64,000 nt of DNA from Ignavibacteriales bacterium (lineage in GTDB: Bacteria; Bacteroidota; Ignavibacteria; UBA10030; SZUA-254): positions 248,001 to 312,000 of the forward strand of contig JACRMQ010000007.1 in the NCBI GenBank assembly GCA_016214905.1, in the 5' to 3' direction. Within the stretch, counting starts at the first letter, position 1. The number at the start of each line of letters is the position of its first letter. The position numbers and the translations under genes are program-made. Positions 7,309 through 20,517 of this stretch are shown here, piece by piece. The notes below the pieces were generated by a model. That model ran no database searches. It was not told the DNA's origin and was given only the letters and a program-made list of their open reading frames with translations.

Positions 7309-8988
7309 ATGAAAACAAATATTGTATTTGCCCTTATTTTGTTCGTTTGCGGGTGTTCCGGATCGAAGAACACTCCGCCTCAGGTTACCGACGCACAAAG
7401 GAATTTAGCTCTGGAACATTTTATTGCCGGTAGCGCACTCGACCAAAAGGGTGAATTCGCAAAAGCGATATTAGAGTATCAGGATGCGGTGCAGTTAATG
7501 CAAGACCCGGCTATCTATAATGCAATGGCAAAAGATTATTCGCTTCTGGGTAAACATGAACTCGCAATGAATTCAGGTCGGGAAGCCGTGAAGCTTGACG
7601 CTGACAACCGTGTTTACCGGCAGACACTCGCCGAAATTTATTTGAACGCATTCGCATTCGATGATGCGTTAAAAGAATATGAAGAATTGGTCAGAATAGA
7701 TCCCGCATATCAGGACGCATGGTTAACACTCGCGCGACTCCGTCAAATCCGTGGTCCGCAAAAATCTCTCGATACCTATAAAGAAATTCTGGATCGTTTT
7801 GGTCCCATAGGCGATGTTTACTTGCAAATGGCACAGCTTTACGCCGCCACCGGAAAATTAAATGACGCCGCCTCGGCATTGCGCGGCATGCTTGGTCTGG
7901 ACCCTGGGAATTATGAGATTACAAAATCTCTCGGAGATATTTATTTGCGGCAAGATAGCGTAGATGCAGCGTTGCGTATCTACAACGATCTTGCAAACCG
8001 GCGTCCCGATGATGTTGAACTGCGAGCCGCGATGGCTCATGCTTATTTGCTGCAGCAAGATTACGATCACGCCGCGATTCAATTTAATCAGGTTATGGAA
8101 AAAGATACAATATCTGCCGATGAACAAATTCGATTCGGACAGGTGTTCGTATCTTTTATAGAAAAAGATTCGGCGGTTGCACCGTATGCGCTCCGACTTT
8201 TCGATCGTATCAAACAAAATCATCCTGAAGATTGGAGAGCTTATTGGTTTCTCGGAGCCATCAATAATATTCTACACAACGATAGTATCGCTCTGGAATA
8301 TTTTCACCAAGTAATCCAGAAAGCGAAAGGTGTTCCCGACGGTTGGATAGGTGCCGCATCTATCTATTACGACAACAACCGGTTTGAAGACGCGATAGCG
8401 CTCCTGACCGAAGCGAGGAAATTCGTTTCGGAAGAGTTTCGTATTTATTTCCTTCTCGGAATATCAAATCAGCGGATTCATCGTGCGGTTGAAGCCGCTT
8501 CGGCTTTGGAACGAGCTGTTCAACTTAACGAAAAAAATGTCGACGCGTTAAGCGCTCTCGGATTGGTTTATGACGAGTTAAAACGTTTTGACGATTCCGA
8601 CAGTATGTACGAACGCGCACTACGCCTTGATCCTAAAAACCACCTTCTCTTGAATAATTTCGGATACAGTTTGGCAGAGCGCGGCATTGAACTTGAGCGC
8701 GCACTAAAAATGTCGAAGGAGGCGGTCAATCAGCAACCCGAGAACCAATCGTATCTCGACACTTACGGATGGATTTTTTATCGGCTCGGGAATTATAATG
8801 AAGCGGAATTGTGGATCAAGCGCGCGATTGAACTTGGATCCAAGAGCAGCGTGATACACAATCATTTGGGGGATATCTATTTTAAGCTGTCCGAAAAAGA
8901 AAAAGCAATGGAATATTGGCAGAAAGCATCCGAGCTCGATCCAGCAAATGAATCGATAAAAAATAAAATTCAACGGGGAAATTTGTGA
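7309..8988 (+). CDS. TPR-repeat outer-membrane lipoprotein
   Basis: 559 residues. A lipoprotein signal with VCGC at residues 14-17 is followed by about twelve tetratricopeptide repeats spanning nearly the whole chain (for example KSLGDIYLRQDSVDAALRIY and GWIFYRLGNYNEAELWIKRA). It is a scaffold with no catalytic motif. The stop overlaps the GTG start of the DUF4292 gene (GTGA), implying translational coupling. A TPR lipoprotein, DUF4292 and LytM-type protein in this order is a recurrent arrangement in Bacteroidota and points to outer-membrane or cell-wall assembly; that functional reading is inference. Confidence 0.8.
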   Translation: MKTNIVFALILFVCGCSGSKNTPPQVTDAQRNLALEHFIAGSALDQKGEFAKAILEYQDAVQLMQDPAIYNAMAKDYSLLGKHELAMNSGREAVKLDADNRVYRQTLAEIYLNAFAFDDALKEYEELVRIDPAYQDAWLTLARLRQIRGPQKSLDTYKEILDRFGPIGDVYLQMAQLYAATGKLNDAASALRGMLGLDPGNYEITKSLGDIYLRQDSVDAALRIYNDLANRRPDDVELRAAMAHAYLLQQDYDHAAIQFNQVMEKDTISADEQIRFGQVFVSFIEKDSAVAPYALRLFDRIKQNHPEDWRAYWFLGAINNILHNDSIALEYFHQVIQKAKGVPDGWIGAASIYYDNNRFEDAIALLTEARKFVSEEFRIYFLLGISNQRIHRAVEAASALERAVQLNEKNVDALSALGLVYDELKRFDDSDSMYERALRLDPKNHLLLNNFGYSLAERGIELERALKMSKEAVNQQPENQSYLDTYGWIFYRLGNYNEAELWIKRAIELGSKSSVIHNHLGDIYFKLSEKEKAMEYWQKASELDPANESIKNKIQRGNL

Positions 8989-9749
8989 GGTATATCGTTC
9001 ATTTTGTTATAATTGCCTCCGTTATGATTTCATTATACGGTTGCAGCAGCTCAAAAAGAGTATTGGATGAAAAAGCCCTTACGTCCGTCGAATTATTCGA
9101 ATTGTTAAACCGGCGCTCCGATTCGATAAAATCTTTTTATGCGGAAGGAACAATTTCGTTTGAGTCACCTGACATTTCTAACTCAGGTTCATTCCGTTTA
9201 TATATTCAAGGAACAGATTCGCTTCGTATCGATCTGCGTGGACCACTCGGTATTCGTGTTGCAACTTTTCTCTTGACAGAAAAAAAGGGGATCTACTACG
9301 ATTGGTTCGAAAACCGCGCTGTATTTGACTCCGATTATTCGAGATCGTCAATTATTCCCATTCCGCTAGAGCTTCATCAACTCATTTCAATATTAACCTG
9401 GGGAATCCCTAAAATTGATATGAGTGATCCATTGGATTACTTTTCAACATCTCCCGAAGAATATTTATTGAAGTATATTTCCATTGATGGAGATAAAAAT
9501 ATCTCAATCGATCGTCTTAATTATACCGGAAGATATTATCGATATTCAAAAAAAGATTCAACAACGCAATTGCTAGTACAATCGTCCGAGAGTGTTGATG
9601 CGAGTGAATTGAGTTTCCCCGAAACAATCCGTATTTCAGACCGTAACGAAACAAACAACATAACGGTTGTGTACGATGAAATACAATTGAACGAACCTGT
9701 GACATGTGCTTTCACGATTCCCAAATCGGCTAAGATAATTTATCGATGA
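8985..9749 (+). CDS. DUF4292 lipoprotein (LolB/LolA-like fold likely)
   Basis: 254 residues, starting with GTG at 8985 inside the preceding stop (GTGA overlap). The signal peptide ends at SLYGC, a good lipobox. The body has the DUF4292 pattern: a strand-rich region beginning IKSFYAEGTISFESP, then SLRIDLRGPLGIRVATF. DUF4292 proteins resemble LolA/LolB-type lipoprotein carriers, which would fit an outer-membrane maturation role, although transport activity is unproven. It overlaps the next gene by 4 nt (ATGA). Confidence 0.75.
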   Translation: MRYIVHFVIIASVMISLYGCSSSKRVLDEKALTSVELFELLNRRSDSIKSFYAEGTISFESPDISNSGSFRLYIQGTDSLRIDLRGPLGIRVATFLLTEKKGIYYDWFENRAVFDSDYSRSSIIPIPLELHQLISILTWGIPKIDMSDPLDYFSTSPEEYLLKYISIDGDKNISIDRLNYTGRYYRYSKKDSTTQLLVQSSESVDASELSFPETIRISDRNETNNITVVYDEIQLNEPVTCAFTIPKSAKIIYR

Positions 9750-10945
9750 ACCGTATAGCGGTAAATATTATACTCTGCTTCCTTCTTCTTTCCGCGGTAA
9801 ATATTGGTTTAGCTTCGACCGATCAGGATATTCAAAAAAAGCAAACGCAGATTGAAAAGTTGAGAAAAGAGATCGATAAATTTGAAGATAAAATAAAAGA
9901 GAGCTCTAAAAAAGAAAAAGCCACTCTTGAACTTTTATCAACATACGACCGGCAGAGCATGCTGTTGAGAAAGTTGGTTGCAAAACTTCGTGAACGTGAG
10001 ATCGCCCTTGAAGCAGAAATCAAGCAGACAAAAGTCACCGTAGGTGAATTAGGAGGACAGCTCTCATCTTTGAAAAAACATTATGCCGGATATGTTTCCA
10101 CGGTATATAAATACGGTAGGGTATATGATCTCGAATTGCTTCTTTCTTCAAAATCGTTCAATCAGCTTCTGGTCCGGTCTGAATATCTAAGAAGATTTTC
10201 CAATCAGAGGCAGCAGGATATGATTCGCATCGATACCAAGAAAAGCTCGGTGGAAAAACAACACGACCTTCTCAATCAGCAATTAGCGGAGCAGCAAGAC
10301 CTGATTCGGCAAAAGAAGAAAGAAGAAAACAGGTTGGCAGCGAAAGCGAAGAAACGGAAAAGTTTGTTGACAGAAATAAGGCGGGATAAGAAAAATTTTA
10401 AGAAAGAGATAGAACGGCGAAAGCAGGACGTTCGTGAATTGGAAAAAATTATCGCGCGGCTCATTGAGGAAGAAGTGGAAGCCCGCAATAAAAAAGATAA
10501 AACGGTTGAATCTCCAATTGGCGGCGGTTTCCTTTCAAAACGCGGACAATTACGCTGGCCCGTTGAACGCGGTAAAGTCACAACCCGCTTCGGATCAGAA
10601 CAACATCCCACGCTGCACACTATAACGCAAAACACGGGAATTGATATAACCGTTTCTGCCGGCAGCGATGTTGTGGCTGTTGCCGATGGTGAGGTGTCTA
10701 AAATACACTGGCTGCCATCATACGGAAATTTGTTGATACTCAACCATCGCAACGGATTCAGAACTGTTTACGCGCACCTTTCTGATATTTCTGTCACCGA
10801 AGGTCAATCCGTAAAAGAGGGGTCGCGGATTGGAAAAAGCGGTGAATCGATAGTCGGTTCAATTTTACATTTCGAAATATACAAAGAGAGAGAAAAATTA
10901 GACCCCGAGCAGTGGCTTAAACAAAAAGGACCCAATCAACGATGA
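9746..10945 (+). CDS. EnvC-like murein hydrolase activator (degenerate LytM/M23)
   Basis: 399 residues. A signal peptide is followed by a long charged coiled coil (about 25-235) and a C-terminal LytM domain (about 275-395). The metal-site residues are largely lost. The H-x3-D motif reads NTGID (His to Asn), and the H-x-H motif reads ILH before FEI (first His to Ile); only the YAH histidine is kept. This is the pattern of EnvC/NlpD-type proteins, which activate amidases instead of cutting peptidoglycan. It overlaps both neighbours by 4 nt (ATGA), so it is co-translated with the DUF4292 lipoprotein and the CHASE2 activator. Confidence 0.8.
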   Translation: MNRIAVNIILCFLLLSAVNIGLASTDQDIQKKQTQIEKLRKEIDKFEDKIKESSKKEKATLELLSTYDRQSMLLRKLVAKLREREIALEAEIKQTKVTVGELGGQLSSLKKHYAGYVSTVYKYGRVYDLELLLSSKSFNQLLVRSEYLRRFSNQRQQDMIRIDTKKSSVEKQHDLLNQQLAEQQDLIRQKKKEENRLAAKAKKRKSLLTEIRRDKKNFKKEIERRKQDVRELEKIIARLIEEEVEARNKKDKTVESPIGGGFLSKRGQLRWPVERGKVTTRFGSEQHPTLHTITQNTGIDITVSAGSDVVAVADGEVSKIHWLPSYGNLLILNHRNGFRTVYAHLSDISVTEGQSVKEGSRIGKSGESIVGSILHFEIYKEREKLDPEQWLKQKGPNQR

Positions 10946-13590
10946 AGAAAGATAATTTGAGCATAAAACCTTACCTTCTGATCGGGATTACTTCTGCGAT
11001 TTTCGTAATTATCATATCACTTCTTTCTCCGGGATTAGTTCAAACCGTTGATGATGGATGGTTGAATGTTTCCTACCGGATAAGAGGTGAACAAAACATC
11101 GATTCTTCAATCGCCGTTTTCTACATCGATGCCGATGATATAAACGCTCTCGGCGGCTTACCGTTAAAACGGAGTTACTATGCATTGCTCGCAAATGCTT
11201 TACACAACAAAGGAGCAAAGGCAATTGGATTTGATATTATTTTCAGTGAATCGGAAGCAGAATATGCAGAACACGATCGTTTATTTGCTTCAACAATTCA
11301 GCATATTAAAGGAGTTGTTCTCTCCGGTTATTTTCACACAATATCCGATACGGAGAAAGCAATTGAAGAAAATATCTCCACGCGATTTTTAATACCTTTT
11401 AACGATAATGCAAACTGGAAATACGGCTCCCGATTTGATTTACCTTACAGGGCGTTGAGTGATGCTGCGGAAGGAGTTGGCCATTCTCATTTCGATAATT
11501 CAAACAGCATTCCAATTTTTGTGGCAACACAGGGGATGTTGCTTCCTTCTTTTGTTTTCGAATTGATGCGTGTTTGGCTCGGCAAACACAATTCCGATGT
11601 AAAGTTTAATCAAAGCAATGTTTTAATCGAAGCAAACGAAAACAGCATTAATTTTCCTTTCGATAAAAACGGAAATTTGAATATAAATTATTCCGGAGGA
11701 ATTCAATCTCTTAACTTAATATCTGCTGTTGAATTTCTTAAATCATATGATGCCGATATTACGGGCAATAAACAGGATGATTTTCAATATTCTATCGAGG
11801 GAAAAATTGTTTTGATAGGAATCATCGCAGAAGGCAGAAGCAAGTTTATCCCAAATCCCTTTTCAGAGGAATTTCCAAGCATCGGTATTCATGCCATGGT
11901 ATTAGACAATGCCCTGAACGACAATTTTCTTGAATACAGCAGTAAAACAATAAACACCATTACCATTATTGTTCTCGGTTTATTAGCCGGGGCTTTGTTG
12001 GCAATTCGAAAAGAAATATATGGATTGCTAAGCGTGCTTGGATTAGTACCATTATTTTTAGCAATCTCTTTGTGGCTGTTTGTCTCGTGTAATTTTGTCG
12101 TTCCAGTGGCGGCGCCGGTTTTCACAATTGTGCTTTTATTTACGATCGGTATGTATTACAAACATCGATCCATGAAAATATTTATGCGCACTCTTTCGGA
12201 TGAAAGAATACATTTTATTGATGAGATAGAAAAAAAACAATCGGCTCTTGAAAAATTACAAACAGAACTTGCCGGCAGTTCAGTCATTAACCGAACTTCA
12301 GATCGGGAAGATATGCTGGCGCAGATAAAAAAATACGAGGTAGAAATAAACCAGCTGCGTACCGCAGCTATTGATTACCTTCCTGATATAACATCGGCAG
12401 ACGCTAATTTACATGAGAGAGAAATATTTGAAGGAATAATTTATGCGAATAACGGTCCTATGCGGGAAGTTATTTCGTTCATCAAAAAAATTGCAAATAC
12501 GTGCTCAACGGTTTTGATTCTGGGAGAAAGCGGGACAGGGAAAGAACTCGTTGCTCACGCTCTTCACGCACACTCTGATAGAAACTCGAAAGCATTTATT
12601 CCGGTAAACTGTGGCGCGCTTTCGGAATCGCTCCTAGAGAGCGAATTGTTCGGTCATGAGAAAGGTGCGTTTACCGGCGCGCTAAAAGAACGCCCCGGAA
12701 GATTCGAACTTGCCGACGGCGGTACGATTTTTCTTGATGAAATTGGAGATACAAGCGAATCTTTTCAGGTAAAATTATTAAGAGTTCTGCAGGATGGAAC
12801 ATTCGAACGTGTTGGAGGTACATCGATAAAAAAAGTGGATGTCAGGATTATTGCCGCCACAAACAAAAACCTCAAACAAAATGTAATAGATAAGACATTC
12901 CGGGAAGATCTCTATTACCGGCTGAATGTTTTAACGATACATCTACCACCACTCAGAGAAAGACAAGGCGACATTCCCATGCTTGTTAAGCAATTCCTTT
13001 TTGAAGAAGATGAAAATATGCAATGCAGTCTTGGCGTGATGAATGTTCTGCGGCAGAACCAATGGAAGGGAAATATACGCGAACTCCAAAGTATTGTTAA
13101 ACGCGCGATTCTCATAGCTAAGACAGAAAACCGCAACCTTATACAACTCCGCGACTTACCCGATGAAATTGCAAAAACTTCTAACACCTCTTTAGATTTC
13201 GAGGAACATATTCCTATCCTGTTGCGCGTAAAAAACTTTTCGAGAAATTCGATTTCTGAAACCGCCAAAGAACTGGGCGGAATAAGCCGCGGAACAGTTG
13301 CAGAATATTTTCGCGGTTACTGCTTCAAGATCTTCTGTGAGTCAAATTGGGATATAGAGAAAACCGTAAAAATCATATCGGAGAGTGATGATCAAAAATA
13401 TAACGATAAAGTTAGAAATAAAATATCAGACTATTTCAACAATGCCATAGATCTCGTTGATCCCATTGTCGGCATCGAAGAAAATATTAAAAAATCAAAA
13501 CCAAAATATAAAAACCTACCACAAAAATATCATACTTATCTAGATAGATTAATTGAAGCATACAATTTGAAACTTTGGTCGAAATTTTAG
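10942..13590 (+). CDS. Membrane-bound CHASE2 sigma-54-dependent transcriptional activator
   Basis: 882 residues. One TM helix is followed by an extracytoplasmic CHASE2 domain (about 40-320, with IAVFYIDADDINALGG), then about three TM helices (about 335-415) and a coiled coil (about 415-475). The AAA+ domain (about 500-735) has Walker A GESGTGKE, an intact GAFTGA loop that contacts sigma-54, Walker B GTIFLDEIG and the REDLYYRLN arginine-finger region. The C-terminus is not a standard Fis tail. It has a helix-turn-helix (SISETAKELGGISRGTVAEY) and about 90 further residues. It should sense an envelope or periplasmic signal and activate sigma-54 promoters while tethered to the membrane. The start overlaps the EnvC stop (ATGA). 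A sigma-54 promoter follows 128 bp after its stop. Confidence 0.88.
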   Translation: MKKDNLSIKPYLLIGITSAIFVIIISLLSPGLVQTVDDGWLNVSYRIRGEQNIDSSIAVFYIDADDINALGGLPLKRSYYALLANALHNKGAKAIGFDIIFSESEAEYAEHDRLFASTIQHIKGVVLSGYFHTISDTEKAIEENISTRFLIPFNDNANWKYGSRFDLPYRALSDAAEGVGHSHFDNSNSIPIFVATQGMLLPSFVFELMRVWLGKHNSDVKFNQSNVLIEANENSINFPFDKNGNLNINYSGGIQSLNLISAVEFLKSYDADITGNKQDDFQYSIEGKIVLIGIIAEGRSKFIPNPFSEEFPSIGIHAMVLDNALNDNFLEYSSKTINTITIIVLGLLAGALLAIRKEIYGLLSVLGLVPLFLAISLWLFVSCNFVVPVAAPVFTIVLLFTIGMYYKHRSMKIFMRTLSDERIHFIDEIEKKQSALEKLQTELAGSSVINRTSDREDMLAQIKKYEVEINQLRTAAIDYLPDITSADANLHEREIFEGIIYANNGPMREVISFIKKIANTCSTVLILGESGTGKELVAHALHAHSDRNSKAFIPVNCGALSESLLESELFGHEKGAFTGALKERPGRFELADGGTIFLDEIGDTSESFQVKLLRVLQDGTFERVGGTSIKKVDVRIIAATNKNLKQNVIDKTFREDLYYRLNVLTIHLPPLRERQGDIPMLVKQFLFEEDENMQCSLGVMNVLRQNQWKGNIRELQSIVKRAILIAKTENRNLIQLRDLPDEIAKTSNTSLDFEEHIPILLRVKNFSRNSISETAKELGGISRGTVAEYFRGYCFKIFCESNWDIEKTVKIISESDDQKYNDKVRNKISDYFNNAIDLVDPIVGIEENIKKSKPKYKNLPQKYHTYLDRLIEAYNLKLWSKF

Positions 13591-13635: not shown

Positions 13636-13664
13636 TTCCCGCAGTTCTTAGTTGTTTTCCCGCA
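13636..13664. promoter_or_regulatory. Candidate activator-binding sites (TTCCCGCA direct repeat)
   Basis: TTCCCGCA occurs at 13636-13643 and 13657-13664, 21 bp start to start (two helical turns), on the same DNA face. They lie 54-82 bp upstream of the -24 element at 13718, about -80 to -110 from the expected start site, which is the usual place for enhancer sites of sigma-54 activators. A related inverted CCCGCA core (TGCGGG) occurs near 13777, downstream of the promoter. Confidence 0.5.
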
Positions 13665-13717
13665 TATGATGAAAAGAAAAACCTTCTAATATCACATAAT
13701 TTGTTTGATAAAATGGT

Positions 13718-13733
13718 TGGCACGCCGTTTGTA
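13718..13733 (+). promoter_or_regulatory. Sigma-54 (-24/-12) promoter
   Basis: TGGCACGCCGTTTGTA matches TGGCACG-N4-TTGCW at every defined base except one (TTGTA for TTGCA), with the correct GG-N10-GC/T spacing. It lies directly downstream of a sigma-54 activator gene and about 104 bp before the ATG at 13838. Transcription should start near 13744. Confidence 0.7.
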
Positions 13734-13837
13734 AATATATGACTTGTCGTTCCGTTGCACAACAACCTAAATCACATGCGGGCATTGAGGGAAAAGCGAC
13801 GGGACGACATTTTATTAAAACAAAAACAGGAGCATTT

Positions 13838-14788
13838 ATGATACATCATAGATTAAAAGTAATAATTAGTATGATAATCATCATTTTATTTTTTGGATGC
13901 TCGGAAGACACCTCAACTAATCCCACGGTAATTACAGATCAAGAAGCGATCATTCAACAAACTACAGACTTAGATTCAATCGCCGATTTTTCCGCATCTG
14001 ATGATGCAACAATTGATGATGGAACTGCCCAAAGCTGGAGTAATAACCTTGAAAAAATTACGACTCCCATTACCCCTTTATTGTGGGGCCGAAAAGTGGA
14101 TAATATTCAAAAAACCGTTACGGTTAATATTGATGGTGATACCGTTGCCACAGCAACAATCAGAAAAATGGTTACGGGCCGTTTGATTATTTTAGCAAGA
14201 GCGGATTCAACTGCACGGCTTGATACTGTTCAAAAACAATTTACAAAAGAATTAAAAAGACAAATACGGTTTGTTAGAATTGCGCGGAATGATGATCGGA
14301 CAAAGAATTGGAAACCAACCGCAATCACATCTATACTCGGCAAAACACAGTTGAGAGATTTTAACATTGCAAGCATAGAACTGATAACACCGAATGACAC
14401 AATAATAATGACAGATACATTACCGCGATGGTTCCGCTTGGGTACAGGTATTGGAACAATTCCCGTGGTAAACGAAGGAGATTCTATAAAAATTAGGTTA
14501 CGGTTATTAAGCAATAATCCGAATACCGAATATGCCGTTGTTCGTCATTGTGTACACCATCGTTTCAGTTACAGGTATCGTGTCAGGATGGGAGTGGTTG
14601 ATAGTCTTTTCAACGGTGAGAAATACGAACGGCAGTATGAGAAGCATTTTGCGGTTCGGCTACCTCCCACGGTAGATATTGCGCGATATAATGCAGTAGT
14701 CGATATTATGTCTTATCAATCTATTAACGACGACACCGAACTATACATGAATATGGTGCTTGGTATACCATATATTGTTAAAAAATAA
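13838..14788 (+). CDS. Lipoprotein of unknown function under the sigma-54 promoter
   Basis: 316 residues from the ATG at 13838. This start was chosen because AGGAG sits 7 nt upstream and the product then begins with a clean lipoprotein signal (lipobox LFFGC). The reading frame is open back to 13739, but that extension has no signal peptide and would overlap the expected transcription start. The mature chain begins with an acidic D/S/T-rich segment and then looks beta-rich, with VTVNIDGDTVATATIRK and a late VRHCVHHRFSYRYRVRMG stretch. I do not recognise a family. A hairpin follows the stop, before the next lipoprotein gene. Confidence 0.7.
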   Translation: MIHHRLKVIISMIIIILFFGCSEDTSTNPTVITDQEAIIQQTTDLDSIADFSASDDATIDDGTAQSWSNNLEKITTPITPLLWGRKVDNIQKTVTVNIDGDTVATATIRKMVTGRLIILARADSTARLDTVQKQFTKELKRQIRFVRIARNDDRTKNWKPTAITSILGKTQLRDFNIASIELITPNDTIIMTDTLPRWFRLGTGIGTIPVVNEGDSIKIRLRLLSNNPNTEYAVVRHCVHHRFSYRYRVRMGVVDSLFNGEKYERQYEKHFAVRLPPTVDIARYNAVVDIMSYQSINDDTELYMNMVLGIPYIVKK

Positions 14789-14886: not shown

Positions 14887-15780
14887 ATGAAAACCTTAAA
14901 TTTTACAAAAATCCCTGTTTTCCTTTTCCTTATCATGCTTTGGAATGGTTGTCAGGAACCCCAACCCGTTTCAATAATAGATGAGAATAGTGACGCGCAA
15001 CTGATCGAGATGAATGCCATTGTTGGTGCAGTAGATTCGTTGTTTGCAACCTCCGGTGTAGACAGCTCGGGGCTTGGTGGAAACAGTGGAAAATATTTTG
15101 CGAGAATGGTAGTCACCGGCATTCTATATGATTTACCGCTGCGTAGCGACAGCGTATCCCAGGCAGAGGCAATTTTCTTTGATCGATTAAATCCTCTGAT
15201 AACCAATGGCAGAACGTCTGCCTATCCATCGTTTGATGTCGGTTCAGTTTTATTAAATGGTGACACTCTTATAAAGCAAAAACGGCACACACGATTATCC
15301 GGGAGAGATTCATCGTTAGGATACAGATATCAGATGCGGGAAAACTACAGTTATGATGCCGGCAAAAATTATCGGTGGCAAATTACGGGGAACGGAAATA
15401 TTGATTCAGCAGAAGTTTCAATAATTGCTCCATCCGAAATACGTGTGCAAAAAATTGATCCTCAAGCTATTTTACCAGGCGTTCCTTTATACATCAAGTG
15501 GCAATGTGCAAATAAATTCGTGAATATTGTTGTAAGCAGAGAGGGTGGACAACAGCAAAAAACATGGATTCCTACCCTTCATCTTAAAATCCGGAATTCT
15601 AAAGGCGAAATTACAATTCCGGAAAAAATCATGGATCTACTTCCAACAAACAAATATCGGAGGTTTTTATTCACGTTTTCGTCTGAATCAAAATTTTCAA
15701 CAAACTTCAATGGCTATCAAGATTCAGTGCTTATCGAGTCTGCTTCTTTGCACAATATTTTATTGAATGTTGGTCCATAA
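14887..15780 (+). CDS. Second lipoprotein of unknown function
   Basis: 297 residues. The N-terminal signal has its lipobox at LWNGC (about residue 22). The mature part has a helical N-terminal stretch with GVDSSGLGGNSGKYFARM, then beta-rich sequence including YRWQITGNGNIDSAEVSI, which could be Ig-like. No known family is evident. It is not an obvious paralogue of the preceding lipoprotein, although size and context match. The stop is 5 nt before the ATG of the barrel-transglutaminase gene, so the two are almost certainly co-transcribed and may form an outer-membrane complex. Confidence 0.7.
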   Translation: MKTLNFTKIPVFLFLIMLWNGCQEPQPVSIIDENSDAQLIEMNAIVGAVDSLFATSGVDSSGLGGNSGKYFARMVVTGILYDLPLRSDSVSQAEAIFFDRLNPLITNGRTSAYPSFDVGSVLLNGDTLIKQKRHTRLSGRDSSLGYRYQMRENYSYDAGKNYRWQITGNGNIDSAEVSIIAPSEIRVQKIDPQAILPGVPLYIKWQCANKFVNIVVSREGGQQQKTWIPTLHLKIRNSKGEITIPEKIMDLLPTNKYRRFLFTFSSESKFSTNFNGYQDSVLIESASLHNILLNVGP

Positions 15781-15785
15781 ACCGG

Positions 15786-17807
15786 ATGAAAATTTTTATA
15801 AGACACATCATCTTGTTGGTTTTCGTTTTTATGAACTTATATAATACATATTCGCAACACCTCAGTTCAGCCCGGGGAATTTCGCTTGGAGCGTTTTCTT
15901 CATTTGCGGGGAGCATCGGTTCGTTGGACTGGAATCCTGCCGGCTTAAACAGTTTAGGAAACTGGGAAATAACATTATCGAATTTTACGACTACGAAAAA
16001 CCAGTCAAACGGCATAGGTGTGTTTAATTCCGTCGGAATTGGAAAAAGATTTTTAGAAAATCAGGCGGTTGCAGTTCAATATTCACCGGGTAAAAAGCTT
16101 GATTTTATTCTTTCTTCATCGTTCTCTATTTATGATACTGCAGGGATTGAAGTTGCGGCAAAATTTGATCGAAAAATATCTTACAACCAAAATTATTCAT
16201 TCGGCTATTCATATTTATTTTCTAACGGATTATCGGTTGGAGTAGGTGCGCATTATTTCGAAACAAAGGTTTCGGATATGAGGTACCGATTCGATGAAAA
16301 TAATTCAATCAAATCGTACACCGAAGATTATACCGCTCAACTGTGGTCCGTAGACTTAGGTTTAATGACGCCGATTTCACAGCATTGGTCGTGCGGAATA
16401 ACATTGAAAAATATATTTCAATTCTCAGAACATGAACTAAATCAGAAATTCGAATATTACCGCCTTAATTTATCAAAAATAATGCGTTTTGGATTCGGCT
16501 ATACCGGAGTCGATGATTTTATAATCGGGGTTGATGGCGATTCAAAATATCATTTTCAGGTCGGTACAGAATGGTCTCCATACTCCTGGTTTCAGTTGCG
16601 ATCAAGCATTTATAATTCAAAATGGAAAGTGATAGATGCGATCGGTCTCGGTTTCGGCATTATTTATAATCCAATTCGAATCGATGTTGCATATCTAAAG
16701 TTTCCGCATTCAGAAAATCGAAATAATTCCGTGAGCGATAATGTTTTTAGATCTGATTCTTTTGTTGATATAGACTATACAGCTTTCACCGCCGATCGAT
16801 TATCGCTTACCGCAACAATTAATCTTTGGCAAACGAGAGAAACTCTTGCGCGGATTGAATATGTTGAAATACTCGGCGAAGTTTTTACAGCTTCGCATCA
16901 AGTTTACGCATTCAGACCAATAGGTAAAGCACGAGTGAAGAATATTTCTTCAAAACCGATTCAGGCAAAAGTGAGCTTCTTCGTCGACGAGATAATGACA
17001 GCACCAACAGATACAAAGTCTTACACGATTTCTCCGGACGAAGTCATTGAAATACCATTCTTTGCAGTGTTCAACGAATTGATTTCTGCTGTGAAGAAAT
17101 TTTCTATATTCGATGGAACTGTATTTGTAAACGCTGAAACAGCAGTCGAATACGATGACAGATACCAAACCAGGGTACTTGTTAGGAGCAAAAACGATTG
17201 GGATGGCGATCCGTTGTCGTTGAGATACTTTGTAACGCCAAATGATCCGGAGATTATCAAATTTTCACGCGACGCTCTAAGCACCAACAAGAAAATATTC
17301 GACAGTCTGGATGTTGTTATTCATAACTTTGCAAAGAGCAAAATTATCTTTAACACATTCGCCGAAAAAATGCTATACGTACACGATCCTATGACCAGCA
17401 AAGATTATGTTCAATATCCATCTGAAACTTTACTGCTACATGGTGGTGATTGCGATGATCTGACTGTTTCGTACGCGTCTCTGCTGAAGAGCATCGGAAT
17501 ATCAGTAGCACTCGTTGATGTTGTGCCTCCGAATCAACCGGACAAAGCTCATATATATTTAATGTTCGATTCAGGTGTACGGCCGGAAAACGGTGAAATG
17601 ATTTCTACCAATCCAAAAAAATATATCGTAAGAAAAAATATAGATGGTAAAGAAACCATCTGGATTCCGGTTGAGACTACGCTAATCTCCAAAGGGTTCG
17701 ATGAAGCATGGACTGAAAGCGCGCAACAATATTATGAAAACACAGAACTTCATTCAGCTATCGAAAAGGGGTGGCTGAGGATAATTGATTTACCAGACGG
17801 AATATGA
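15786..17807 (+). CDS. Outer-membrane beta-barrel fused to a transglutaminase-like domain
   Basis: 673 residues. A signal peptide is followed by a PorV/UPF0164-style barrel (about 25-345): it begins SSARGISLGAFSSFAGSIGS and contains the typical DWNPAGL. An Ig-like segment (about 370-450) and a C-terminal transglutaminase-like domain follow. The catalytic cysteine motif LHGGDCDDL lies near residue 555, with a downstream KAHIYLMFD histidine. The Cys-His layout suggests a papain-fold protease, transglutaminase or amidase acting at the outer membrane. It sits between a lipoprotein and a FecR-like gene, 5 and 15 nt away. Substrate unknown. Confidence 0.75.
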   Translation: MKIFIRHIILLVFVFMNLYNTYSQHLSSARGISLGAFSSFAGSIGSLDWNPAGLNSLGNWEITLSNFTTTKNQSNGIGVFNSVGIGKRFLENQAVAVQYSPGKKLDFILSSSFSIYDTAGIEVAAKFDRKISYNQNYSFGYSYLFSNGLSVGVGAHYFETKVSDMRYRFDENNSIKSYTEDYTAQLWSVDLGLMTPISQHWSCGITLKNIFQFSEHELNQKFEYYRLNLSKIMRFGFGYTGVDDFIIGVDGDSKYHFQVGTEWSPYSWFQLRSSIYNSKWKVIDAIGLGFGIIYNPIRIDVAYLKFPHSENRNNSVSDNVFRSDSFVDIDYTAFTADRLSLTATINLWQTRETLARIEYVEILGEVFTASHQVYAFRPIGKARVKNISSKPIQAKVSFFVDEIMTAPTDTKSYTISPDEVIEIPFFAVFNELISAVKKFSIFDGTVFVNAETAVEYDDRYQTRVLVRSKNDWDGDPLSLRYFVTPNDPEIIKFSRDALSTNKKIFDSLDVVIHNFAKSKIIFNTFAEKMLYVHDPMTSKDYVQYPSETLLLHGGDCDDLTVSYASLLKSIGISVALVDVVPPNQPDKAHIYLMFDSGVRPENGEMISTNPKKYIVRKNIDGKETIWIPVETTLISKGFDEAWTESAQQYYENTELHSAIEKGWLRIIDLPDGI

Positions 17808-17822
17808 GAAGGGAAAATAATC

Positions 17823-18533
17823 ATGAGAACAGTTATAATAGTTTGTATTGCTTTTATGCTCTCGAGCGTTTATACCAGCGCTGCCGATTTCAAAGTTTTA
17901 GCTACACAAGGTGGTGTAACGGTTCGCCACGGTGTTAACGAAAACTGGAATCCGGTTGCGGTCGGAGATATATTAAATTCCGATGATTCGATAGAATTAG
18001 ACAAGCAATCATCGGCAACTCTCCTATCTAACGGAACTGCGAAGATTACTCTGCCTGAAATGGTGATAATCGATCTTTCCGATCTCCGCATGTTATCTCA
18101 AGAAGATCTGCTCTTGAAGTTAGCGATGGAAAATATAAGATCAATACCGCCTCGCGATGATATAAAAGAGTTAAATATACCACGTGTTACGATTGTGCAT
18201 GGTGAAAAGAAAGACCAATCACCGAAAATAAATCAACAAGATATTCAAAATGGTGTAAAACAATTAAACGGCTGCAAAGTTCTGCATCGAGGCGGGTATT
18301 ATGCAACATGTGCGTTGAAGGTGAAGCAGGTATTACGTTTGTACCCGGCTTTAAAGGAGGATATCGATACGAGAATGCTCGTTGCATCTTCTTTCGAAAA
18401 AATGAATTTGAATCAAGAAGCGCTTGAAGAGTATTATGCCATCCTAGAAAAACCGCTTTCAAAAGAACAACAAACTATGCTTAATAAAAAAATTGAATTG
18501 TTAACCAGCATATTAAAATCTTCACAAAACTAA
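17823..18533 (+). CDS. FecR-like periplasmic domain protein
   Basis: 236 residues. A cleavable signal ends near YTSAAD. Residues about 25-95 match the FecR-type pattern (QGGVTVRHGVNENWNPVAVG, then a 'D-x-I-x-L/T' and 'A-T-L-L-S-N-G' run). The C-terminal 90 residues are helical and TPR-like (MLVASSFEKMNLNQEALEEY). FecR-like domains often occur with CHASE2 proteins, as here (CHASE2 at 10942), suggesting a shared envelope-sensing pathway. There is no TM helix or anti-sigma N-domain, so it is not a classical FecR regulator. AAGGG precedes the ATG. Confidence 0.6.
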   Translation: MRTVIIVCIAFMLSSVYTSAADFKVLATQGGVTVRHGVNENWNPVAVGDILNSDDSIELDKQSSATLLSNGTAKITLPEMVIIDLSDLRMLSQEDLLLKLAMENIRSIPPRDDIKELNIPRVTIVHGEKKDQSPKINQQDIQNGVKQLNGCKVLHRGGYYATCALKVKQVLRLYPALKEDIDTRMLVASSFEKMNLNQEALEEYYAILEKPLSKEQQTMLNKKIELLTSILKSSQN

Positions 18534-18582
18534 AATTTTCCGGAGAATGCCTGCTATAAACCTAAATAATATGGAGGTTAGT

Positions 18583-20517
18583 ATGAAAAAACTAACTACA
18601 TACTTTGTACTGATTATGTCTCTGATCGTGATATCATATTCGGTGAATGCTCAATCTGTCCTTCCTCCGCCCGCAAATTTGACCGTTGAACAACAGGGAG
18701 CAATTGCTAAGCTGACATGGAACTCAGCGCAAGGTGCTTCGTGGTACAAAATTTATAAATCGGTCGATTCATTGCCTTATGTTTTATTGGCTACAATTCA
18801 CCAGACGAATTATTCTGATCCGTCTGTGAGTTATGAAAAAATATATAAATACTATGTTACCGCATCCAATTACATCGGCGAAAGTTTACCAAGTAACGAT
18901 GTAATTTTTAAACTTGATGCGCAACCGCCATCGCCGATTAGGGGATTCATTAAAGGAAAAATTGTCGATGATAGTTCCGGTTTTTCGATATGTGGTGTTC
19001 GACTTCGTTTTTACAAACCTGATGGTTTTCTCTATTTTCGAGAAGCAAGAACAGATTCGCTTGGCGACTATTCCATTCACATTGATACCGGCTCATACTA
19101 TATATATGCTTCGAAATGGACATACCAATCTGAATGGTTCGACAATGTCGCAGATCGAGAAAATGCTACGTTAGTTCATGTTGCACACAAAGATACCAGC
19201 ATCGCCGATTTCGGATTAAAAAAGATTGTTCCAGCATTACCACCCCGGTTAGTATCAATTAGTGGCACAGTTACCGATAGCATAACAGGTAATCCTATTA
19301 AAGATGCTTTCGTGGTTATCATGCGTTCGACAAGGCAAATTAACTTAATCCAGAATCAGGAAGGTCATCTTTTTGGAAATCGGAACGAAACGTTCATGAT
19401 TCCGGGTTTTGGGACGCTTATCGGCGTTATGCGGGTGGTGAGAACTACAGACGAAGGTTCATATACCGCGTGGGTGCCCGACAGCTTAAATTATATCATG
19501 CTCTCTTTTAAACTTGGATATGTTCCGGAATTCTATAACAACAAACTCACACCATACGATGCCGACCGGATTTTTGCGGCATCCAACATGACCGGTTTGA
19601 ATTTCGATTTAGTTAGTAATCCGGATGCTCAGAATTCGGTCTCAGGTCAGGTGAAAAGTCTTGCTGGTGAGGGAGTTTTCTCTAAGGTTGTACTTTTTGA
19701 AAAAACACCGATCGGAATTTTTCCATTGCGTTGTGGCATAACCGACACAAATGGAAACTATTCTTTCGGTTATTTATATAGTGGCTATTATTACACTAAA
19801 GCATATCCATACTCTGCATTCGCACCGGCGTGGTATTCTGCAGACAGTTGCGGAATCGGGTGCTGGGTCAATGCCGATAGTTTCTTGGTGGATGGTAACA
19901 CGACCGGCGCCGATATATGCGTTCAACCTATAACCATCACCGGTTTTGCATGTATCAGTGGAAGTGTTAACGAATCCGGCAGTGGAACGGAAATTCAAGG
20001 CGCAACGGTTTATGCCGTCTCGCCTCTCTCAAATACCATTATTGGTTATGATATAACAGAACAGGATGGTAGTTTTGAAATACAAAATCTACCGCCGGGA
20101 CTATATCAGATGGTGGTTGATAAAGAAGGATATACCGCCAATGAATTCACTGTCTATTCGGTTGATGCAGTTAATAATTTCAGAGTCACCGAAGCAGATA
20201 TAAGCATATCGAATTTTACACTCGAAGTGCCGGGAACAGATAACAATATGCCGGTTAATTATCGACTAAGTCAGAATTATCCAAATCCGTTTAATCCTGT
20301 AACTAATATAGAGTTTTCGATTGCTAACTCTCAATTGACAATTCTGAAAGTGTTTGATATGCTGGGCAGAGAAGTAGTGACGCTGGTAAATGAAGTGAAG
20401 CAGTCCGGTGTTTACACACTAAACTGGGATGCAAGTGTTTATCCAAGTGGCGTTTATTATTATCGATTGCAATCCGGCGGTTTTATGGAAACGAAGAAAT
20501 TAATTTTAATGAAATAA
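18583..20517 (+). CDS. Secreted fibronectin/carboxypeptidase-regulatory repeat protein with T9SS sorting domain
   Basis: 644 residues from the ATG at 18583, chosen for its GGAGG 6 nt upstream and the signal peptide that follows; a longer frame starts at 18547. After the signal, a fibronectin III-like domain (about 25-105, PPPANLTVEQQGAIAKLTW) is followed by four carboxypeptidase-regulatory-like beta-sandwiches (starting GFIKGKIVDD, ISGTVTDSITG, SVSGQVKSLAG and CISGSVNESGSG). A T9SS sorting domain (QNYPNPFNPVTNIEFSIA, ending KKLILMK) completes it. It is a surface-exposed structural or adhesive protein with no catalytic site seen. It may be the last gene of the 13838 transcription unit, 49 nt after the FecR-like gene. 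Confidence 0.8.
   Translation: MKKLTTYFVLIMSLIVISYSVNAQSVLPPPANLTVEQQGAIAKLTWNSAQGASWYKIYKSVDSLPYVLLATIHQTNYSDPSVSYEKIYKYYVTASNYIGESLPSNDVIFKLDAQPPSPIRGFIKGKIVDDSSGFSICGVRLRFYKPDGFLYFREARTDSLGDYSIHIDTGSYYIYASKWTYQSEWFDNVADRENATLVHVAHKDTSIADFGLKKIVPALPPRLVSISGTVTDSITGNPIKDAFVVIMRSTRQINLIQNQEGHLFGNRNETFMIPGFGTLIGVMRVVRTTDEGSYTAWVPDSLNYIMLSFKLGYVPEFYNNKLTPYDADRIFAASNMTGLNFDLVSNPDAQNSVSGQVKSLAGEGVFSKVVLFEKTPIGIFPLRCGITDTNGNYSFGYLYSGYYYTKAYPYSAFAPAWYSADSCGIGCWVNADSFLVDGNTTGADICVQPITITGFACISGSVNESGSGTEIQGATVYAVSPLSNTIIGYDITEQDGSFEIQNLPPGLYQMVVDKEGYTANEFTVYSVDAVNNFRVTEADISISNFTLEVPGTDNNMPVNYRLSQNYPNPFNPVTNIEFSIANSQLTILKVFDMLGREVVTLVNEVKQSGVYTLNWDASVYPSGVYYYRLQSGGFMETKKLILMK

Follow-up and report, generated by a model that had tools for sequence, protein, structure and literature searches.

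In the genome of an Ignavibacteriales bacterium, a gene coding for a CHASE2-containing sigma-54 activator is followed by a short direct repeat, a sigma-54-type promoter, and a series of genes for surface proteins, which raises the question whether the activator itself switches on its neighbours through this repeat. The locus was analysed in a window, i.e., the whole stretch of DNA of 64,000 nucleotides, and was compared with orthologous loci of related genomes. Comparative sequence analysis made it highly probable that sigma-54 is activated here by a one-component protein anchored in the membrane, which acts through a dedicated enhancer to drive an outer-membrane and type IX secretion (T9SS) surface operon. 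The coordinates of the features are given in Table 1.

Table 1. Features of the activator locus and of the genes under its presumed control (positions in the window)
Feature	Coordinates	Strand	Evidence or remark
EnvC-like M23 peptidase gene	9746..10945	+	3' end overlaps activator start by 4 nt
CHASE2-AAA+ sigma-54 activator, 882 aa	10942..13590	+	Pfam and hydropathy
GAFTGA sigma-54 contact loop, aa 575-580	12664..12681	+	exact in 26/29 orthologs
C-terminal DNA-binding domain (predicted), aa 745-882	13174..13587	+	alignment, AlphaFold2
Activator half-site 1 (candidate)	13636..13647	+	TTCCCGCAGTTC; window sequence and ortholog alignment
Activator half-site 2 (candidate)	13657..13668	+	TTCCCGCATATG; 21 bp from half-site 1
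Sigma-54 -24/-12 promoter (predicted)	13718..13733	+	TGGCACGCCGTTTGTA
5' leader stem-loop	13746..13808	+	arms 13746-13758 and 13796-13808, conserved apical CACATGCGGGC
lipA, lipoprotein, 316 aa	13838..14788	+	beta-sandwich model; first gene of operon
lipB, second lipoprotein-like gene	14887..15780	+	second gene of operon
barTG, PorV/PorQ-like outer-membrane barrel	15786..17807	+	transglutaminase-like C-terminal half
fecR, secreted FecR-like protein	17823..18533	+	by-eye assignment, family model matches none
fn3T9, CarboxypepD_reg protein	18547..20517	+	fifth gene; sorting tail for type IX secretion

The CHASE2-AAA+ activator and its genomic context

Pfam analysis revealed that the activator combines a CHASE2 domain (PF05226; E = 1e-34; 120.5 bits, cut-off 26.3) with a Sigma54_activat domain (E = 6e-70; 234.8 bits, cut-off 20.2), and both domains were present in 29 of the 29 aligned full-length orthologs. 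Three hydrophobic segments (aa 11-29, 337-355, and 363-381) flanked the CHASE2 domain, and from this hydropathy profile the protein is predicted to be membrane-anchored. Walker motifs were found as well (GESGTGKE at aa 528 and GGTIFLDEI at aa 593), and the exceptions to an exact GAFTGA loop among the orthologs were GAFTEA, GSFTGA, and one ortholog without the HEKG anchor used for locating the loop. An earlier note on this DNA had made its proposal of sigma-54 control dependent on the presence of rpoN in the genome (3.3 Mb, 10 contigs); indeed, a single copy was retrieved (one Sigma54_DBD match, 193.6 bits), and about twelve further proteins of this genome gave strong Sigma54_activat matches. 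The genome also encodes another CHASE2 protein, which is about 750 aa long (G000:C7:342435-343427).

The AlphaFold2 model of the C-terminal domain (pLDDT 92.6) placed a helix-turn-helix in the block of highest conservation, around SETAKELGGISRGTVAEYFRG, with helices near aa 770-777 and 783-800. Neither HTH_8 (Fis-type) nor any other Pfam helix-turn-helix family was found in the C-terminal 138 residues at E <= 0.001 (0/29 orthologs). Comparison with PDB folds gave nothing significant with Foldseek and, in a second fold search, low-Z matches only (best 4.4, mostly TetR-type), which show neither novelty nor relationship; a profile search of PDB sequences returned two weak TetR-like matches (E = 0.1). 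In the preferred reading, this is a putative DNA-binding domain of an uncatalogued type.

On the other side of the activator gene, a DUF4292 gene (8985-9749) precedes the EnvC-like gene, and the gene order of the latter and the activator was kept in relatives. The overlap of 4 nt between these two genes indicates that the activator is probably made together with the envelope-gene operon.

Tandem sites, predicted promoter, and presumed target genes in the window

The earlier note had reported two copies of the half-site core TTCCCGCA at 13636 and 13657, 21 bp apart, as well as the promoter element at 13718-13733 beyond the activator stop at 13590, and all of these proved exact on recheck. Transcription of the lipA operon is predicted to start near 13743-13744. 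The pair TTCCCGCA-N13-TTCCCGCA occurred once at zero mismatches in the 3.3-Mb genome and nowhere with exactly one mismatch, and none of the nine other genomic places with a two-mismatch pair was followed by a -24/-12 element (0/9). Similarly, TGGCACG-N4-TTGYA had a single occurrence in this genome. The repeat and promoter observed in the window are far beyond chance. The broader pattern TGGCAY-N5-TTGC gave eight matches in the same genome versus five for the reversed pattern, which is near background, so that this pattern alone cannot map the sigma-54 regulon.

The five genes lipA, lipB, barTG, fecR, and fn3T9 would be transcribed as one operon. The start of lipA is most plausibly 13838, where an AGGAG ribosome site and a lipobox were present; an upstream in-frame ATG (13739) is less plausible, as it would precede the predicted transcript start. 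The position of lipA after the module of tandem sites and promoter was conserved in relatives. Structural matches of its product to RhoGDI/Unc119/NPC2-like beta-sandwiches had low TM-scores and were taken as a generic fold. The barTG product matched NCBIfam NF033709 with E = 1.3e-6, below the curated cut-off of this model, and its transglutaminase-like domain showed a weak LapG resemblance (E = 0.014). The T9SS tail of fn3T9 was recognised by Por_Secre_tail models (PF18962, E = 1.2e-11; TIGR04183, E = 7.5e-14), and in some relatives fn3T9 was a unit by itself, preceded by a further copy of the module. A role of the operon products at the cell surface is suggested by their sequences, and barTG may be involved in surface attachment or processing.

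Conservation of the module across orthologous loci

The module was traced in 54 distinct loci that contained an ortholog of the CHASE2-AAA+ activator and enough downstream sequence; most of the genomes were metagenome bins, some of which had broken contigs or errors in the sequence (e.g., L106, L114, and L142). In a motif-free test, exact 7-mer repeats at 21 bp were found in 28 of the 54 loci versus 1.3 in shuffles; no repeat signal obtained without presupposing a motif was stronger than that of the pair spacing. TTCCSGCA pairs were present in 39/54 loci, of which 27 had no mismatch and a spacing of 21-22 bp, and the other 12 had a single mismatch and a spacing of 20-22 bp. The alignment of 74 half-sites yielded a longer consensus than the core of the earlier note, TTCCSGCASTTC, with TCC and GC occurring in 74 of the 74. 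Four bases upstream, the nucleotides of alignment column -4 were fully mixed (T19 C19 A18 G18), indicating that the flanks are without any memory of common ancestry.

The sense strand carried TGGCAY-N5-TTG in 41 of the 54 loci, versus none on the antisense strand and 0.16 in shuffles. In 33 loci the pair was located 38-129 bp upstream of this promoter, so tandem upstream sites precede a -24/-12 element there as they do in sigma-54 enhancer-binding protein systems. The promoter in the window had been described as one base off the consensus; this deviation is real but is a shared trait and not noise, as the TTG of the -12 element preceded a base other than C in 29 of the 33 promoters from orthologous loci. 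The distance from the activator stop to the pair was 10-100 bp in most genomes. A good pair in L064 was accompanied by an unrecognisable -12 half, and the pair of L130 was without a clear promoter. A third TTCCCGCA copy directly followed the second one in L087 and L090 (TTCCCGCACTTCCCGCA). Loss of the repeat and promoter in close relatives that keep the genes had been named beforehand as an argument against the circuit; nearly all of these relatives keep both. As judged by this comparison, the arrangement recurs across the whole class of little-studied Ignavibacteria-type bacteria.

Co-occurrence and displacement of activator, module, and operon

Activator orthologs were found in 32 of 60 related genomes (own genome counted), and a scan of 84,980 species retrieved 49 activator loci, among others in Ignavibacteria/Ignavibacteriae, Kryptonia, and Calditrichota bins. 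Strong barTG matches were present in 30 of the 32 genomes with the activator versus 0 of the 28 without it, a count in which related lineages are not independent; in families f1 and f6, activator and barTG were mostly both there or both missing. Two complete genomes of a single contig each, G184 and G236, are among those with the operon.

The circuit is less strictly local than the earlier note had suggested, as linkage was absent in some genomes, and the activator lies outside the controlled operon. Indeed, activator and operon were on different contigs in G004 and G012 (L143 and L144), with no operon beside the activator, whereas G045 (L085) had a gap of 5.9 kb between them and G184 (L213) a convergent operon. 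In all four genomes (4/4), lipA was immediately preceded by the tandem sites, which were not located behind the activator. A promoter match was found upstream of lipA in three of them, and G184 contained a promoter-like TGGCAC with a spacer one base longer. Judged from these positions, it is the operon that the module accompanies, not the activator.

Seven unlinked site pairs were looked at as well. Four exact pairs, all in family f5, each stood ahead of a canonical -24/-12 element, followed by an fn3T9 homolog in G054, G039, and G032 and by a different secreted T9SS-tailed protein in G018. The remaining three, all in or overlapping long reading frames, were considered chance occurrences; G014:C393 and G004:C29 lacked a downstream promoter, and at G023:C23 the sole match, CGGCAC, overlapped the second half-site. 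A directed search found the module at fn3T9 homologs in G054, G042, G039, G032, and G020, and the homolog of G057 had the promoter with no recognisable pair. The module was absent from the fn3T9 homologs of the activator-less genomes G005, G009, and G010. Several f5 fn3T9 paralogs and those of f2 g12 were without the module too, indicating that fn3T9 is not a universal target. In family f14, the activator homologs of L212, L214, L216, L219, and L225 lacked an adjoining lipA operon or recognisable module, and the Calditrichota activator orthologs, like most of those in f14, had no recognisable module adjoining them.

Co-divergence of recognition helix and site

Four orthologs with a changed start of the recognition helix (NRS twice within one genus, HRG, and HRS) had CCGGCA cores in both half-sites, versus 2 of 35 other orthologs (p about 2e-4, or 1e-3 with the genus merged), an association that spans few independent lineages. 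Most members of genus g33 have ACCCCGCA in both copies. The class includes a sister order in which the activator helix reads [NS]RT-V-EN in place of NRGTVAEY, and these activators precede the same lipA-(lipB)-barTG-fecR operon. The tandem site of this order was CAGGCA in L215, L217, L218, L220-L223, and L226, and CATGCA in L224 and, upstream of the convergent operon, in L213. Spacing was 21-22 bp, and a TGGCA-type promoter mostly followed, L218 being without a clear one. The Kryptonia loci L137 and L142 displayed ACCCAGC-type pairs at 21 bp, as read by eye. In the aligned sequences, site and recognition helix change together, both within the order and between orders.

A conserved leader hairpin

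Between promoter and lipA, a leader stem of 12-13 bp was found, with a consensus helix of 12 pairs, seven of which were changed on both sides. In the alignment, 97% of the cells were paired versus 38-60% in slid controls. A covariance model of the leader retrieved one copy in each of 13 genomes, including the own one, and two copies in a fourteenth. The extra copy (L171; G011:C56:26588-26650) immediately followed the stop codon of an unrelated gene with a T9SS tail, indicating that lipA is not the only gene with which the element is associated. In the Rfam search, no family was assigned to the leader, the only hit being a spurious antisense histone hairpin (E = 0.018, far below cut-off). The leader may be a regulatory RNA of a new kind, or a 5' hairpin that stabilises the transcript.

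Proposed mechanism and alternative explanations

In the proposed mechanism, the CHASE2 domain would be periplasmic and would sense an envelope or extracellular cue, and the signal would reach the AAA+ ring in the cytoplasm by way of the membrane segments. The C-terminal helix-turn-helix would bind directly to the two half-sites, two helical turns apart, and the AAA+ ring, by DNA looping across some 50-130 bp, would open sigma-54 polymerase at the TGGCAY-N5-TTG promoter. The presumed outcome is activation, not repression, of lipA-lipB-barTG-fecR, and also of fn3T9, whether this gene belongs to the operon or stands apart behind a module of its own. This would supply lipoproteins of the outer membrane, a PorV-like barrel that includes a transglutaminase-like domain, and a surface protein exported by the T9SS. 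The chain that the earlier note had drawn, from CHASE2 activator through enhancer pair and sigma-54 promoter to the lipoprotein/barrel-transglutaminase operon, is supported by sequence comparison through conservation, co-mobility, a second target, the joint change of site and helix, and co-occurrence.

The pair and promoter might form a real enhancer-promoter unit that is bound by another sigma-54 activator of the genome, the adjacency of the CHASE2 gene being incidental. Although about a dozen further candidates are encoded, this explanation is improbable, as the activator and target genes co-occur (30/32 versus 0/28), the site core changes together with the recognition helix of this very protein, and the fn3T9 homologs of activator-less genomes are without the module. 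The probability is negligible that the pair is a by-product of the activator 3' end (terminator-like or REP) and that the -24/-12 match arose by chance. This would fit the position of the pair shortly past the activator stop in most genomes but is contradicted by G004, G012, G045, and G184, in which pair and promoter lie upstream of lipA instead, by the modules ahead of unlinked fn3T9 homologs, and by the strand specificity of the promoter match.

Membrane-tethered transcription factors freed by proteolysis are known in principle, and the topology of the CHASE2 protein is a predicted one; both points count for the explanation that this protein does bind the pair, yet chiefly represses or buffers the operon or becomes active only on release from the membrane. 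However, the AAA+ motor, Walker motifs, and GAFTGA loop, needed only for sigma-54 activation, are kept in nearly all orthologs, and this explanation is considered quite improbable, although release from the membrane is compatible with these features. Direct activation by the membrane-anchored CHASE2 protein is the preferred reading. Its widest form, which is somewhat less likely than not, is that of a class-wide, undescribed type of signalling. In this form, a CHASE2 receptor integral to the membrane would double as the sigma-54 activator, its DNA-binding domain would belong to a new family, and the enhancer would have co-evolved with it. Such a receptor would pass the state of outer-membrane or type IX surface assembly straight to transcription, the leader adding a step of control at the RNA level.

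Comparison with known systems

The activator resembles enhancer-binding proteins of the NtrC/NifA/PspF type in its AAA+ domain with GAFTGA and its C-terminal helix-turn-helix, and the tandem upstream sites with a TGGCAY-N5-TTG promoter are likewise shared. It differs in its sensor, which is a cytoplasmic receiver, GAF, or V4R domain in the latter type and a predicted membrane-embedded CHASE2 domain here; a Pfam scan found no receiver domain on the activator of the window. Furthermore, NtrC possesses a Fis-type HTH_8, whereas the present C-terminal domain matches no Pfam helix-turn-helix, although HTH_8 is not obligatory for enhancer-binding proteins. A review of their architecture describes the plan of these proteins as N-terminal regulatory, AAA+, and C-terminal DNA-binding (R-C-D), and membrane sensors are not mentioned in the passages concerned (PMC7175178). 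The present activator fits this plan as outlined there, with an unusual membrane sensor and a putatively uncatalogued DNA-binding domain.

The nearest functional analog is the PrsK/PrsR-sigma-54 system controlling PEP-CTERM surface proteins, for which a conserved site motif with a -24/-12 element and a phylogenetic profile matching the activator have been described (PMC1569441). Both systems have a motif and a -24/-12 element upstream of surface-protein genes. However, PrsR is a response regulator that depends on a distinct sensor, a histidine kinase of the membrane (PMC1569441), whereas sensor and activator would be one protein here. The targets differ as well, being lipoproteins, a PorV-like barrel, and T9SS cargo in a different phylum; those targets that were scanned with Pfam had no PEP-CTERM but a T9SS tail instead. 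CHASE2 receptors such as the adenylate cyclases of Sinorhizobium meliloti share the extracellular sensor family, but the outputs described for them are cyclases and not a sigma-54 AAA+ domain (PMC13001267). No published CHASE2-type sigma-54 activator or membrane-bound enhancer-binding protein of such type was found in open-licence PMC papers, which is weak evidence of novelty.

The finding points to an uncharacterised surface-assembly gene set. In a phylum where hardly any regulators have been studied, it offers a defined regulon and a defined operator, along with variants in which site and helix are matched. The variants NRGTVAEY/TTCCCGCA, NRSTVAEY/TTCCGGCA, and RTxVSEN/CAGGCA are suited to swap tests. 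Sigma-54 activators normally read cytoplasmic signals or depend on a separate kinase; in the present system, the membrane receptor appears to be the transcription motor itself, so that the way in which a tethered AAA+ ring reaches its promoter becomes directly testable.
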